A stretch of 64,000 nt of DNA from Priestia megaterium NBRC 15308 = ATCC 14581. GTDB lineage: Bacteria; Bacillota; Bacilli; Bacillales; Bacillaceae_H. This document shows positions 27,865-40,477 of this stretch, piece after piece. The DNA is taken from the NCBI RefSeq assembly GCF_000832985.1, contig NZ_CP009920.1, positions 4,520,501 to 4,584,500 of the forward strand, read 5' to 3'. The translations under genes and the position numbers were made by a program. The notes under the pieces were generated by a model. That model saw only the letters and a list, made by a program, of their open reading frames with translations, had not been told where the DNA came from and did no database searches. The number at the start of each line of letters is the position of its first letter. Within the stretch, counting starts at the first letter, position 1.

Positions 27865-29109
27865 GTGTATTTTTCTTACTCTGACAAAGTAGTGAAGCTG
27901 CAAGAAGAATTGACCTCTTTTATGGAAGAGCATATTTACCCAAATGAACGGCTATACGAACAACAGCTGAATGAACAGCCATCTAGATGGTCAGCTGTTC
28001 CTCCGATCATGGAAGAGTTAAAAGAAAAAGCAAAGCAAGCTGGATTATGGAACTTATTTTTGCCAGAAAGCGAATACGGAGCGGGTCTAACAAATGTCGA
28101 ATATGCCCCTCTTTGCGAAATTATGGGCCGTTCTATTATTGGACCAGAAGCTTTTAACTGCGGAGCTCCTGACACCGGCAATATGGAAGTACTGGTTCGA
28201 TACGGAACGTCCGAACAAAAAGAAAAATGGCTAAAGCCGCTGTTAAATGGAGACATTCGCTCCTGCTTTTCTATGACAGAACCGGATGTAGGTTCTTCTG
28301 ATGCCACAAACATTCAGTGCAGTATTGTAAGAGAAGGCGATGAATATGTGATCAACGGAAGAAAATGGTGGTCTTCAGGTGCGGGAGATCCTCGCTGCAA
28401 AATTGCTATTGTCATGGGAAAAAGCGATTTTACCGCATCTAAATATGAACAGCAATCTATGATTCTAGTTCCTTTAAATACGCCAGGAGTTAAAATTGAA
28501 CGAATGCTGCCAGTCTTTGGATACGATCACGCTCCTCATGGACATGCTGAAATTCATTATGACAATGTGCGTGTGCCAGCGTCTAATATGCTTTTAGGCG
28601 AAGGAAAAGGGTTTGCTATTGCTCAAGGCAGATTGGGGCCTGGACGTATTCATCACTGCATGCGTTTAATAGGAGCAGCGGAAAGAGCGCTTGAAGAACT
28701 ATGTAAGCGTATTCAAAACCGCTCTACGTTTAATAAGTTGCTTTCTCAGCAAGGGGTTATTCAAGAATGGGTGGCAGAATCGCGTATTGAAATTGAGCAA
28801 GCTCGCTTATTAACATTAAAAGCTGCTTATATGATGGACACAGTTGGAAATAAAAAAGCGCGGAAAGAAATTGCTATGATTAAAGTAATGGCTCCTGCTA
28901 TGGCTTTAAAAGTCATTGATCGCGCTATTCAAGCATTTGGAGCAGCAGGTGTTTCAGAAGACACGCCGCTTGCGGCACTTTGGGCAAATGCTCGAACTCT
29001 TCGCCTCGCTGATGGTCCAGACGAAGTGCACAAAGCACAGCTTGCAAGACTTGAGTTAAAATTCTATCAAGAAAAGGAGGCAACCTATGCACATAAAGGA
29101 TTTGTTTGA
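27865..29109 (+). CDS. ACAD10/11-type acyl-CoA dehydrogenase
   Basis: 414-aa FAD flavoenzyme. [13 protein letters not shown] and [11 protein letters not shown] are the FAD/substrate loops; [40 protein letters not shown] and [10 protein letters not shown] match the C-terminal half of mammalian ACAD10/ACAD11 much better than ordinary short-chain enzymes. In that family the enzyme removes phosphate from a 4-phospho-acyl-CoA; here the kinase is a separate gene (34339). GTG start after GAGGGG. First gene of the operon, overlapping the next by 23 bp. Confidence 0.88.
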
Positions 29110-29860
29110 TTTAACTGGGAAAACAGCTATTATTACCGGAGGAGGCAGAGGATTAGGAGAACAAATGGCAGAAGGGCTTGCAGAAGCAGGGGCAAATATT
29201 GTTCTATGTTCGAGAAAGAAAGAAGCATGTCAGCAAGTGGCCGATCGATTGGCCACCATGGGCGTAAAAACCCTCGCTTTAGCATGCGACATCAGTCAGC
29301 CTGAAGATATTAAAAATGTCGTGCATCAAACGATTGAAACATTTGGACGTATTGATATTTTAATTAATAACAGCGGAGCTACGTGGGGTGCTCCGGTTGA
29401 AGAAATGCCTCTTGAAGCATGGCAAAAAGTGATGAATATTAATGTTACAGGAACGTTTTTAATGTCCCAAGAAGCTGGAAAACAAATGATTAAACAAAAA
29501 GCTGGCAAGATTATTAACATTGCTTCAATTGCCGGTCTTGGAGGAACAGATCCTCAGTACATGGATACAATCGGGTACAACACGAGTAAAGGAGCGGTCA
29601 TTACGTTTACGAAAGATTTAGCTGTCAAATGGGGACAGCATAATATTCAAGTTAATGCGATTGCGCCGGGATTTTTCCCTACTAAAATGTCAGGTGCGAT
29701 TATGGAACAAGGCAAAGATTATTTTCTAAGTCAAACCCCTTTAAAACGCTTTGGCTCCGAAGCTGATTTAAAAGGAGCATCTGTTTTTCTTGCTTCTGCG
29801 GCGTCCAATTATATTACGGGAGATATTCTGACAGTAGACGGTGGAGTTCATGCTATGTGA
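29087..29860 (+). CDS. Short-chain dehydrogenase (LvaD-like position)
   Basis: 257-aa [11 protein letters not shown] cofactor loop, [24 protein letters not shown] then YNTSK active site, and APGFFPTKM. Its overall look is like gluconate-5-dehydrogenase relatives. Its place between an ACAD10/11-type dehydrogenase and an acyl-CoA ligase suggests interconversion of a keto- and hydroxy-acyl-CoA. AAAGGAGG 7 bases before ATG; starts inside the preceding gene. Confidence 0.85.
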
Positions 29861-29879
29861 ATAAGAAAGGAGTAACTTG

Positions 29880-38705: not shown

Positions 38706-39479
38706 ATGAGTGATTTAGTAGTAGAAAAGCACGGGACTATTTTATCTTTAACGTTAAATCGGCCGGATCGTTTAAATGCATTCAGTGAGGAAATGATTGA
38801 AAAGTTAACAGCTGAAATAAAACAGGCGCAAAGCGATGAGTCTATTAAAGTGGTTATATTAAATGGAGCAGGGCGCTCGTTTTCTGCCGGAGGCGATGTA
38901 AAAACGATGGGCCAAGCATCCGGATCTGATGTTTATGAACATATCGGTCGTTTAAATGAATGTATTTTAGCGATGCAAAATCTAGAGAAGCCAATTATTT
39001 CAGCAGTTCATGGATTTGCAGCAGGAGCGGCTTTTAATTTAGCTCTCGCTTCTGACTTTATCATTGCGTCAGAAGAAAGTCGGTTCGTATTAAGCTTTTC
39101 TCAAGTTGGATTGATTTCAGACGGAGGAGGCCTTTACTTTCTTACAAAGGTCGTTGGTCCCCATAGAGCGAAGGAACTATTATTTTTAGGAGAGCCTATG
39201 GATGCCGATACGGCTTACAAAGCTGGTTTTTTAAACCGTGTAGTACCGTTAAATCAGCTGAAAGATGAGGTCACATCCTTTGCAAGTCGCTTATCACAAG
39301 GACCAACCAAAGCGTATGGGAAAATGAAAAAAATTGTCAACGATTCCTTTCATTTAACATTAGAACAAGTTCTTGAACAAGAAAGGCTAACGCAAGTTCT
39401 TATGGTAGAAACAAGAGATCATCAAGAAGGAATATCTGCGTTTAAAGAAAAAAGAAAGCCACTATTTCAAGGGAAATAA
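38706..39479 (+). CDS. PaaG-like enoyl-CoA isomerase/hydratase
   Basis: 257-aa crotonase. Both hydratase glutamates are missing (GAAFNLAL instead of GGCELAL, FSQVGLISDGG instead of PEVKLG), but Asp139 in SDGGG matches the catalytic Asp of PaaG and 3,2-enoyl-CoA isomerases. So double-bond shifting is more likely than hydration. Start ATG 38706, 9 bases after GAGGAGGG; the upstream in-frame Met lies within the SDR gene. Confidence 0.87.
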   Translation: MSDLVVEKHGTILSLTLNRPDRLNAFSEEMIEKLTAEIKQAQSDESIKVVILNGAGRSFSAGGDVKTMGQASGSDVYEHIGRLNECILAMQNLEKPIISAVHGFAAGAAFNLALASDFIIASEESRFVLSFSQVGLISDGGGLYFLTKVVGPHRAKELLFLGEPMDADTAYKAGFLNRVVPLNQLKDEVTSFASRLSQGPTKAYGKMKKIVNDSFHLTLEQVLEQERLTQVLMVETRDHQEGISAFKEKRKPLFQGK

Positions 39480-39493
39480 GAGGGGGATATAAG

Positions 39494-40477
39494 ATGAAAG
39501 CCATTCAATTTACGCAGTACGGAGGACCTGATGTTCTTCAAGTTATCGATATTGCACGCCCTGTACCAAAAAAGAAAGATGTGCTCATTAAAGTTGCGGC
39601 AATCGGCGTTAATTACGCCGACGCTGCACGGCGTGAAGGAGCATACGTAGTCGAAACACCGCTGCCTTTTATCCCAGGCTCTGAAGTTGCGGGCGAAGTG
39701 GTTGAAGTAGGCGAGGATGTAAAAGGGATAAAAGTAGGTACAAAAGTCGTGACGCTGCTGGGATCTAATCGAGCAACAGGATACGCTGAGTACACGCTGG
39801 CTGACTCAAGAGGTCTTATTCCTTTGCCGGAGAATGTGGATTTAACACAAGCGGTTGCTTTGCCTCTTCAAGGACTCACGGCTTATCATATTTTAAAAAC
39901 AATGGGTCGCCTTGAAAAAGGAGAAACCGTCATTGTTCATGCGGCAGCAGGCGGCGTTGGAACCTTAGCTGTTCAGCTTGCCAAAATTTTTGGAGCTGGA
40001 AAAGTTATTGCTACAGCGAGCTCCAAAGAAAAGCTTGAGCTTGCAAAAAATCTTGGAGCTGACGAAGCGATTAACTATACAGAAACAGGCTGGGAAAAAC
40101 AAATTTTAGAAGTAACGGAAGGAAAAGGGGCCGATATTATTTTAGAAATGGTAGGAGGGCATATATTCTATGAATCTCTTCAATGTCTTGCACCATTTGG
40201 GCGCCTCGTTTTTTACGGAATGGCTAGCGGAAAACCTGTAAAATTTAACCCTGCCCGCCTGATGGAAAAAAATCAATCGGTTCTAGGCTTTTTCTTACCT
40301 CAAATGATGGCAAAACCAACACTTTATCAGCAAAGCCTGCATGAGCTATTAAACTACGTAAATGCCGGTCAGTTAAAATTAATGCTGGGCGGCACATTTT
40401 CACTTGATGAAGCGGCAGATGTACATCGTCTGCTTCAAGGGAGAAAAACGACCGGAAAATTAGTATTAGTTCCTTAA
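39494..40477 (+). CDS. Zinc-less MDR quinone oxidoreductase-like enzyme
   Basis: 327-aa medium-chain reductase. GVNYADAARREGAY, PGSEVAGEVVEVG and the NADPH motif HAAAGGVGTLAVQLAK are the quinone-oxidoreductase pattern; no structural-zinc cysteines are present. Last gene of the operon. It could reduce an enoyl or quinone side product; not known. Confidence 0.87.
   Translation: MKAIQFTQYGGPDVLQVIDIARPVPKKKDVLIKVAAIGVNYADAARREGAYVVETPLPFIPGSEVAGEVVEVGEDVKGIKVGTKVVTLLGSNRATGYAEYTLADSRGLIPLPENVDLTQAVALPLQGLTAYHILKTMGRLEKGETVIVHAAAGGVGTLAVQLAKIFGAGKVIATASSKEKLELAKNLGADEAINYTETGWEKQILEVTEGKGADIILEMVGGHIFYESLQCLAPFGRLVFYGMASGKPVKFNPARLMEKNQSVLGFFLPQMMAKPTLYQQSLHELLNYVNAGQLKLMLGGTFSLDEAADVHRLLQGRKTTGKLVLVP

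Follow-up and report, generated by a model that had tools for sequence, protein, structure and literature searches.

Does a gene run of Priestia megaterium NBRC 15308 (= ATCC 14581) encode a route for 4-hydroxyacyl-coenzyme A (CoA) esters in which the two activities of mammalian ACAD10 and ACAD11 are separate proteins, and what is a ComB-fold protein doing next to its kinase? The run lies at positions 27865-40477 of a 64,000-nucleotide stretch (contig NZ_CP009920.1, 4,520,501 to 4,584,500; hereafter the window). Its open reading frames are all on the + strand and tightly packed, with gaps <90 nt and several overlapping genes. A preliminary description of this DNA had named five genes, an acyl-CoA dehydrogenase (ACAD) at 27865, a short-chain dehydrogenase/reductase (SDR) at 29087, an acyl-CoA ligase at 29880, a kinase at 34339 and a PaaG-like isomerase at 38706. 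All five are open frames at these positions, and Pfam agrees with the SDR, ligase and crotonase assignments. The gene at 35394-36137, which overlaps the kinase gene and encodes the ComB-fold protein, had been passed over. Our best explanation of the whole is a split ACAD10/11 entry route with a ComB-fold phosphatase, to which we give a probability of about 0.6, every reaction in this organism being predicted.

The kinase and the acyl-CoA dehydrogenase

The ACAD (27865..29109, + strand) has Pfam ACAD domains. No PDB entries match it better than those of human and mouse ACAD11 (2wbi, 492 bits; 8v3u, 479 bits), compared with 141 bits for 1jqi, the best conventional ACAD. It is identical to mouse ACAD11 at 218 of 383 aligned residues (57%). 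Residue mapping places mouse R626, H634, R637 and D753 at R256, H264, R267 and D383, with R631 at R261 and H597 at H227. A paper on the mammalian enzymes (PMC12440821) reports that the 4-phosphate is held by R626, H634 and R637 in a model, that ACAD activity depends on these three residues, that D753 is the catalytic residue, that R631 is common to ACADs generally, and that the 4-phosphate clamp is specific to ACAD10/11 and LvaC. The clamp and the catalytic Asp are kept in the Priestia protein, in agreement with the ACAD10/11 marks first noticed in it. This and a second paper (PMC12440821, PMC11342911) give 2-trans-enoyl-CoA as the product of ACAD10/11. They propose that a proton is taken from C2 and a hydride passes to flavin adenine dinucleotide (FAD), and that with the departure of phosphate the substrate receives the electrons back. 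As ACAD10/11 yield 2-trans-enoyl-CoA directly, no isomerase is needed, and the double-bond shift included in the preliminary description falls away.

The kinase (34339..35397, + strand) matches Pfam APH with 154 bits and is a predicted 4-hydroxyacyl-CoA kinase. Its closest solved relative is PDB entry 9o56, named "Aminoglycoside phosphotransferase" (355 aa; 478 bits over nearly the whole length), with 3dxp next at 156 bits and 8v3v, the kinase domain of ACAD11, at 154 bits. Identity to mouse ACAD11 is 33%, or 94 of the 289 aligned positions entered. The AlphaFold2 model has a mean predicted local distance difference test score (pLDDT) of 90.0, and its Foldseek matches are 3dxp, the 25-hydroxysteroid kinase 9ft5 and 8v3v. 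Mouse D220, N225, R176 and the DWE motif map to D213, N218, R170 and D233-W234-E235, all invariant across 19 aligned sequences. According to PMC12440821, from which these residue roles come, R86 and R176 are the CoA-contacting arginines of the ACAD11 kinase domain. Next to its alphaC Glu the Priestia kinase has an Arg, R76, whose mouse equivalent is not number 86 by chain count. The ACAD10/11 kinase requires the CoA ester of its substrate, as described in PMC12440821 and PMC11342911. The likeness to the kinase half of the human proteins, already proposed from the sequence, is borne out by the 8v3v match and the kept catalytic residues; in the comparison with ACAD11, both Priestia proteins match by sequence, and the kinase by Foldseek as well.

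The pair was then followed in 150 genomes of the same order, with thresholds of 1e-60 for the kinase and 1e-100 for the ACAD. The kinase is present in 70 of these genomes and the ACAD in 67, all of them within the kinase-positive 70. The kinase-only genomes (G002, G009 and G096) hold more divergent kinases with a second ACAD type nearby, 41-43% identical, which keeps R-H-MR and the Asp. Across 81 kinase regions (the window plus 80), the phosphate clamp was found in 77 of the 79 ACADs of at least 35% identity; the two clamp-less ones are a partial match (L110) and an ACAD of the second type (L144). The second type, at 40-43% identity, was seen near kinases in L129, L132, L134, L136, L138-L140 and L146-L148, with an R-H-MR clamp and the catalytic Asp in YDGPDEVH or YDGADEVH. 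Apparent ACAD-SDR fusions of 666-669 codons (L090, L105) were discarded as artefacts of frames extended past reported stops. Since kinase and ACAD occur together in the order sample, with the clamp in nearly all of the ACADs examined, 4-phosphoacyl-CoA is most likely the common intermediate of these pairs, as judged from sequence. We are likewise highly confident that the operon encodes the kinase and ACAD part of a split ACAD10/11-type 4-hydroxyacyl-CoA route. Split kinase/ACAD pairs are already known in bacteria, and the Priestia pair is a further member of that kind.

The ComB-fold gene beside the kinase

The start of the overlooked gene (35394..36137, + strand) overlaps the kinase stop by 4 nt, and the gene also overlaps the FadE gene. 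The protein matches PF04029, the Pfam family named for 2-phosphosulfolactate phosphatase, with 215 bits, and its AlphaFold2 model (pLDDT 94.4) has the ComB fold, with template modelling (TM) scores of 0.90/0.95 and a root-mean-square deviation of 1.4 to 1vr0. We propose that it is a phosphatase or regulator of the 4-phosphoacyl step. Of the first 30 kinase loci, among them that of the window, 24 have it next to the kinase. In the sample of 150 order genomes, the 70 with the kinase include 65 that have a PF04029 match, and the 80 without it include 7 (Fisher p 5e-28, a value that is too strong because the genomes are related and that overstates their independence). In the kinase-positive genomes the match lies <200 bp from the kinase in 53, adjoins the ACAD11 gene in 4, is at <12 kb in 2 and elsewhere in 6, and is absent from 5. 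Not all 65 are alike: G003 has a fragment only, and G020 (Arg at position 31) and G078 (resembling a third PF04029 group, described below) have other types. The matches in kinase-negative genomes are ComA-linked (G051, G075), of the third group (G046, G115, G143) or of the kinase-linked type with an internal stop (G125), and one was outside the reading (G084).

A scan of the genome_contigs collection with an alignment of the 35394 protein gave 259 relatives, of which the best 80 were kept. Among these 80 the kinase is directly upstream in 66 and in the locus in 76, and an ACAD11-type ACAD is in the locus in 74. Ten of the 76 loci with a kinase have the ComB-fold gene next to the ACAD11 gene instead. 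A kinase is missing from L174 and L176, which do have the ACAD, and both are missing from L231 and L248. Operon layouts vary, so the link between the ComB-fold gene and the kinase is not one frozen layout. A 574-codon ComB in L107 was set aside as an artefact, its frame having been extended past a reported stop.

For the comparison of residues we formed a set of 65 proteins by our own grouping, consisting of 57 copies beside or near a kinase and eight of nine unlinked copies assigned by place and likeness; the ninth unlinked copy (L153), with its Arg, was counted as "other". D28, E73, T104, N105, G106 and N126 are kept in 65/65 of the set and D158 in 63/65. At position 31, the ComA-linked copies have Arg in 7/7, whereas the set of 65 has Leu in 59, Phe in 5 and Met in 1. 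Protein 35394 has L31 and lacks the Arg of the D-x-x-R motif. A third, unlinked PF04029 group has Ser in 4/4. Sixteen further copies from the phylum do not stand beside a kinase; 14 of the 16 matched the motif pattern and all 14 have Arg, including that of G157, whose kinase lies elsewhere. In G317, from another order, the copy adjoining the kinase has Leu. The 80 genome_contigs loci gave Leu in 77, Ile in 1, Met in 1 and one unmatched, counts that are not independent because one of the two search patterns included that Leu. If, as we infer, the Arg binds substrate in ComB, a hydrophobic residue in its place would agree with an acyl substrate having replaced a small anionic one. In a PF04029 tree of 78 rows, a branch of their own (100/100) unites the seven ComA-linked copies; only these and the third group are clean.

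Among the papers listed in the literature searched, outside which most subscription papers fell, none ties the ComB fold to a kinase of the 4-hydroxyacyl-CoA type. The ComB-fold partner coupled to the kinase is a new element, and the kinase/ACAD pair itself is of a known kind. Apart from these loci, a PF04029-like protein of Allomeiothermus silvanus (L170, 7929-8663) bears the annotation 2-phosphosulfolactate phosphatase and is encoded in one run with RuBisCO and phosphoribulokinase, likely another re-use of the ComB fold.

A different fold may take the same place. The kinase is followed by a gene for a histidine phosphatase (PF00300) in Pseudoalteromonas, Azospirillum and Ideonella, where the nearby ACAD has the clamp; the three histidine phosphatases read have an intact RHG motif at the start. 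The Ideonella protein was used as a query against a plasmid collection, with kinase places taken from 30 of 249 and 60 of 76 records. It matched 46 plasmid records, 25 of them within 300 bp of a kinase, 3 not (626 bp, 24 kb and far) and 18 without a listed kinase place. The 25 are from Proteobacteria (12), Streptomyces (3) and Deinococcus (10), several being near relatives of each other, with the clamp checked in few of the ACADs. There is no phosphatase beside the kinase in Deinococcus psychrotolerans, Streptomyces cathayae and a Cytobacillus plasmid. For the levulinate cluster of Pseudomonas citronellolis, PMC6692424 describes a histidine phosphatase beside the LvaA homologue, with no lvaB found, and its authors suggest phosphate removal from 4-phosphovaleryl-CoA.

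Proposed route and competing explanations

In the route that we propose, the acyl-CoA ligase (29880..31496 from its ATG, with a TTG frame from 29877, + strand; Pfam AMP-binding, 321 bits) would make the acyl-CoA, and an SDR may reduce a 4-oxo group. The SDR at 29087..29860 (+ strand; Pfam adh_short_C2) is a candidate 4-oxoacyl-CoA reductase with an LvaD-like role, and it has relatives at >=55% identity in 70 of the 80 genome_contigs loci. The kinase would phosphorylate the 4-hydroxyl of the acyl-CoA, and the clamp-bearing ACAD, with transient use of FAD, would eliminate the phosphate to give 2-trans-enoyl-CoA. The enoyl-CoA hydratase (33115..33897, + strand; Pfam ECH_1, 206 bits) and the 3-hydroxyacyl-CoA dehydrogenase (32234..33115, + strand; Pfam 3HCDH_N/3HCDH) of the operon would carry on from there. 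The ComB-fold protein would remove the phosphate from 4-phosphoacyl-CoA or from the freed 4-phospho acid, and would release trapped CoA and substrate when the kinase outpaces the ACAD or phosphorylates the wrong substrate. Whether it is such a kinase-coupled phosphatase of 4-phosphoacyl-CoA we regard as an even question. A broader proposal, to which we give slightly less credence, is that a 4-hydroxyacyl-CoA kinase is often one of three parts, with a phosphatase working against it to clear or proofread 4-phosphoacyl-CoA. Unrelated folds would fill the third place: that of ComB in Bacillales and that of histidine phosphatases in Proteobacteria, Streptomyces and Deinococcus, while in animal ACAD10 it would be a HAD domain that was fused and has since degenerated. 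The "phosphosulfolactate phosphatases" beside such kinases would then be misnamed.

Several observations weigh against an opposing phosphatase, beyond the kinship of the sampled genomes. In a sample of 299 genomes from the phylum, 162 have PF04029 and only 6 the kinase. In G157, G204 and G243, kinase-positive genomes from a different class, the 18 kb surrounding the kinase contain no PF04029. Within the order sample, 5 of the 70 kinase-positive genomes (G102, G105, G110, G111 and G131) have no PF04029 match, and in 6 of the 70 it is away from the kinase, in two of them only as another type. For the five genomes without a match we collected frames of >=100 aa that had no assignment and lay no more than 6 kb from the kinase; the G110 region has none. 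Eight + strand frames of the other four genomes were scanned with Pfam, the others being left out. These eight held no phosphatase and corresponded to an aldehyde dehydrogenase, a solute-binding protein, dehydratases, a PAPS reductase, a luciferase-like protein and an ACAD C-terminus, so that the partner seems dispensable to the kinase/ACAD route. Moreover, the PF04029 tree has no single supported branch of kinase-linked copies and contains several long branches, and a phosphatase would run a futile cycle unless regulated. Two known proteins also speak for another kind of partner. LvaB, a 12-kDa hypothetical protein and partner of LvaA in Pseudomonas putida, came down with LvaA in a pull-down, and the two take part in forming 4-phosphovaleryl-CoA (PMC6692424); the HAD domain of ACAD10 restrains the kinase and has negligible phosphatase activity (PMC11342911). 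The ComB-fold protein could accordingly be a non- or weakly catalytic kinase partner that helps or restrains the kinase in the manner of either, and the presence of ComB-like genes after kinases paired with two distinct ACAD types would suit this role. However, the ComB core is conserved in the set of 65 beyond the needs of a pure binder, and the RHG motif of the histidine phosphatases read is intact. The conserved catalytic residues favour an opposing phosphatase, and ACAD10 and LvaB favour a kinase partner, which we hold to be possible but doubtful.

The remaining alternatives concern the substrate of the operon and the original function of the ComB fold. The preliminary description had equated the set with LvaD, LvaE, LvaA and LvaC plus isomerisation; a split kinase/dehydrogenase pair in a beta-oxidation operon stands, while the isomerisation and the equality with lva do not. 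The LvaD and LvaE equivalence, drawn from the broad SDR and AMP-ligase families only, is not supported as written. A strict lva operon, with levulinate as the natural substrate and the SDR as LvaD, would account for the overlap of the SDR gene with the ACAD gene and for the SDRs that neighbour the pair in individual records from Deinococcus, Pseudoalteromonas, Ideonella and Azospirillum. Yet those SDRs are only 27-38% identical to SDR 29087 (the Cytobacillus SDR is 67% identical), and the latter scores above the cut-off of NCBIfam NF006070, "gluconate 5-dehydrogenase" (407 vs 279). The ligase exceeds the cut-off of the long-chain subfamily NF004837 (487 vs 476), and a complete FadE set suggests longer chains. 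Nor does the run contain the other lva components: judged by gap size rather than by LvaB sequence, there is no room for LvaB next to the kinase or elsewhere because the gaps are <90 nt, and no LvaR or LvaFG-like transport genes were found by Pfam and NCBIfam scans confined to the run, whose regulator is of the TetR type. We consider a levulinate operon unlikely. The operon could also serve ordinary, branched or unsaturated fatty acids, with the kinase/ACAD pair acting on another hydroxyl or CoA ester, as FadE, hydratase, 3-hydroxyacyl-CoA dehydrogenase and PaaG-like crotonase in the same operon and the Foldseek placement of the kinase near 25-hydroxysteroid kinase 9ft5 might suggest. This is very unlikely given that the clamp specific to ACAD10/11 and LvaC (PMC12440821) is present together with the catalytic Asp, and given the co-occurrence of kinase and clamp-bearing ACAD in the order sample.

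That the ComB-fold gene is a true 2-phosphosulfolactate phosphatase, there by chance, would explain its fold and core residues and is scarcely credible. In sulfolactate synthesis, ComA acts before ComB. This genome has no ComA (PF02679) match at E <= 0.001, and ComA occurs in 9 of 70 kinase-positive and 12 of 80 kinase-negative order genomes (p 0.8), with no association between PF04029 and ComA in the 150 genomes (p 0.5); a sulfolactate role for 35394 was rejected on the missing ComA match and the missing association. The ComA-linked copies also sit on their separate branch with Arg31 in all seven, compared with 0/65 in our set.

As to the source of 4-hydroxy acids, oleate hydratase was rejected as a general one: PF06100 has no match in this genome at E <= 0.001, and 83 of the 150 genomes have any match, full-length in 2. 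CYP102-like P450s (PF00067, frame >1000 codons, so that frames of 924 and 942 were left out) are present in 19 of the 70 genomes with the kinase and 7 of the 80 without it (p 0.004, ignoring kinship), which lends weak support to self-made hydroxy fatty acids feeding the route. The Priestia genome itself has a CYP102-like P450 (G000:C6:133993-135306, 1053-codon frame), a possible hydroxy fatty acid maker.

If the three-part proposal is correct, many Bacillales proteins, an entire set of them, wrongly carry the name "2-phosphosulfolactate phosphatase", and the phosphatase-fold domain of mammalian ACAD10 would find an evolutionary explanation as a kinase-coupled phosphatase turned regulator. Priestia, of which laboratory strains exist, would then be a model for 4-hydroxy fatty acid breakdown, and 35394 a promising gene to remove or add in strains meant to keep or consume 4-hydroxy acids and gamma-lactones.

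Remaining genes and relation to known systems

The other genes of the run, all on the + strand, are those for a TetR-type regulator (31554..32150; Pfam TetR_N, TetR_C_24), a hotdog thioesterase (33912..34313; Pfam 4HBT_2), a conventional FadE acyl-CoA dehydrogenase (36125..37903; NCBIfam NF058590, 817.5 vs a cut-off of 600), a second SDR (37915..38676; Pfam adh_short_C2), the PaaG-like crotonase/isomerase (38706..39479 from its ATG, with a GTG frame from 38661; Pfam ECH_1) and, as the final gene, a quinone-reductase-like dehydrogenase (39494..40477; Pfam ADH_zinc_N, ADH_N). A motif check found FadE to be without the phosphate clamp and to have the ordinary Glu in FEGT. The crotonase scores 216 bits against NCBIfam PaaG, under the cut-off of 345, and more likely serves unsaturated acids. 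Terminator-like hairpins 5' (27712-27739, + strand) and 3' (40529..40546, both strands) of the run come from a consensus scan only, which found 15 in the region where 12.5 were expected. The nearest named sequence found was that of Priestia aryabhattai B8W22, with 91-99% identity per gene and 18 window proteins placed.

Directly 3' of the operon lies a gene for PdxS (pyridoxal phosphate synthase; 40641-41555), with no PdxT seen adjoining and three PdxS copies in the genome. A small ferredoxin-like open reading frame (41587-41841, 84 aa, C-x2-C-x2-C, named by eye) separates it from the CoA-transferase genes, and a CoA-transferase pair with a thiolase occupies 42564-45074. In the same stretch, a PAS histidine kinase (25639-27363) has AtoS as its best NCBIfam match (281 bits, under the cut-off of 646), and acetoacetate regulation of the nearby CoA-transferase/thiolase genes is possible.

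Among known systems, the Priestia pair resembles mammalian ACAD10 and ACAD11 in combining a kinase with a clamp-bearing ACAD whose active-site residues could be mapped, with the same predicted two-step chemistry (PMC12440821, PMC11342911). It differs in consisting of two separate genes in a beta-oxidation operon, and its partner has the ComB fold, whereas ACAD10 has a HAD domain and ACAD11 none. With the lva operon of P. putida (LvaABCDE), as described in PMC6692424 and the two ACAD papers, it shares a kinase, an ACAD, an SDR and an acyl-CoA ligase. In contrast to lva, the Priestia run has a TetR regulator, an extra FadE, a hydratase, a dehydrogenase and a thioesterase, and is without LvaB, LvaR and LvaFG. 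The levulinate cluster of P. citronellolis LA18T is similar in that a phosphatase-family gene adjoins the kinase and no LvaB was found (PMC6692424); there the gene encodes a histidine phosphatase, to which the ComB fold of Priestia is unrelated. Finally, protein 35394 shares its fold and core residues with ComB itself (1vr0), but has Leu for the Arg of D-x-x-R, an altered N-S-P loop and a link to a kinase instead of ComA.

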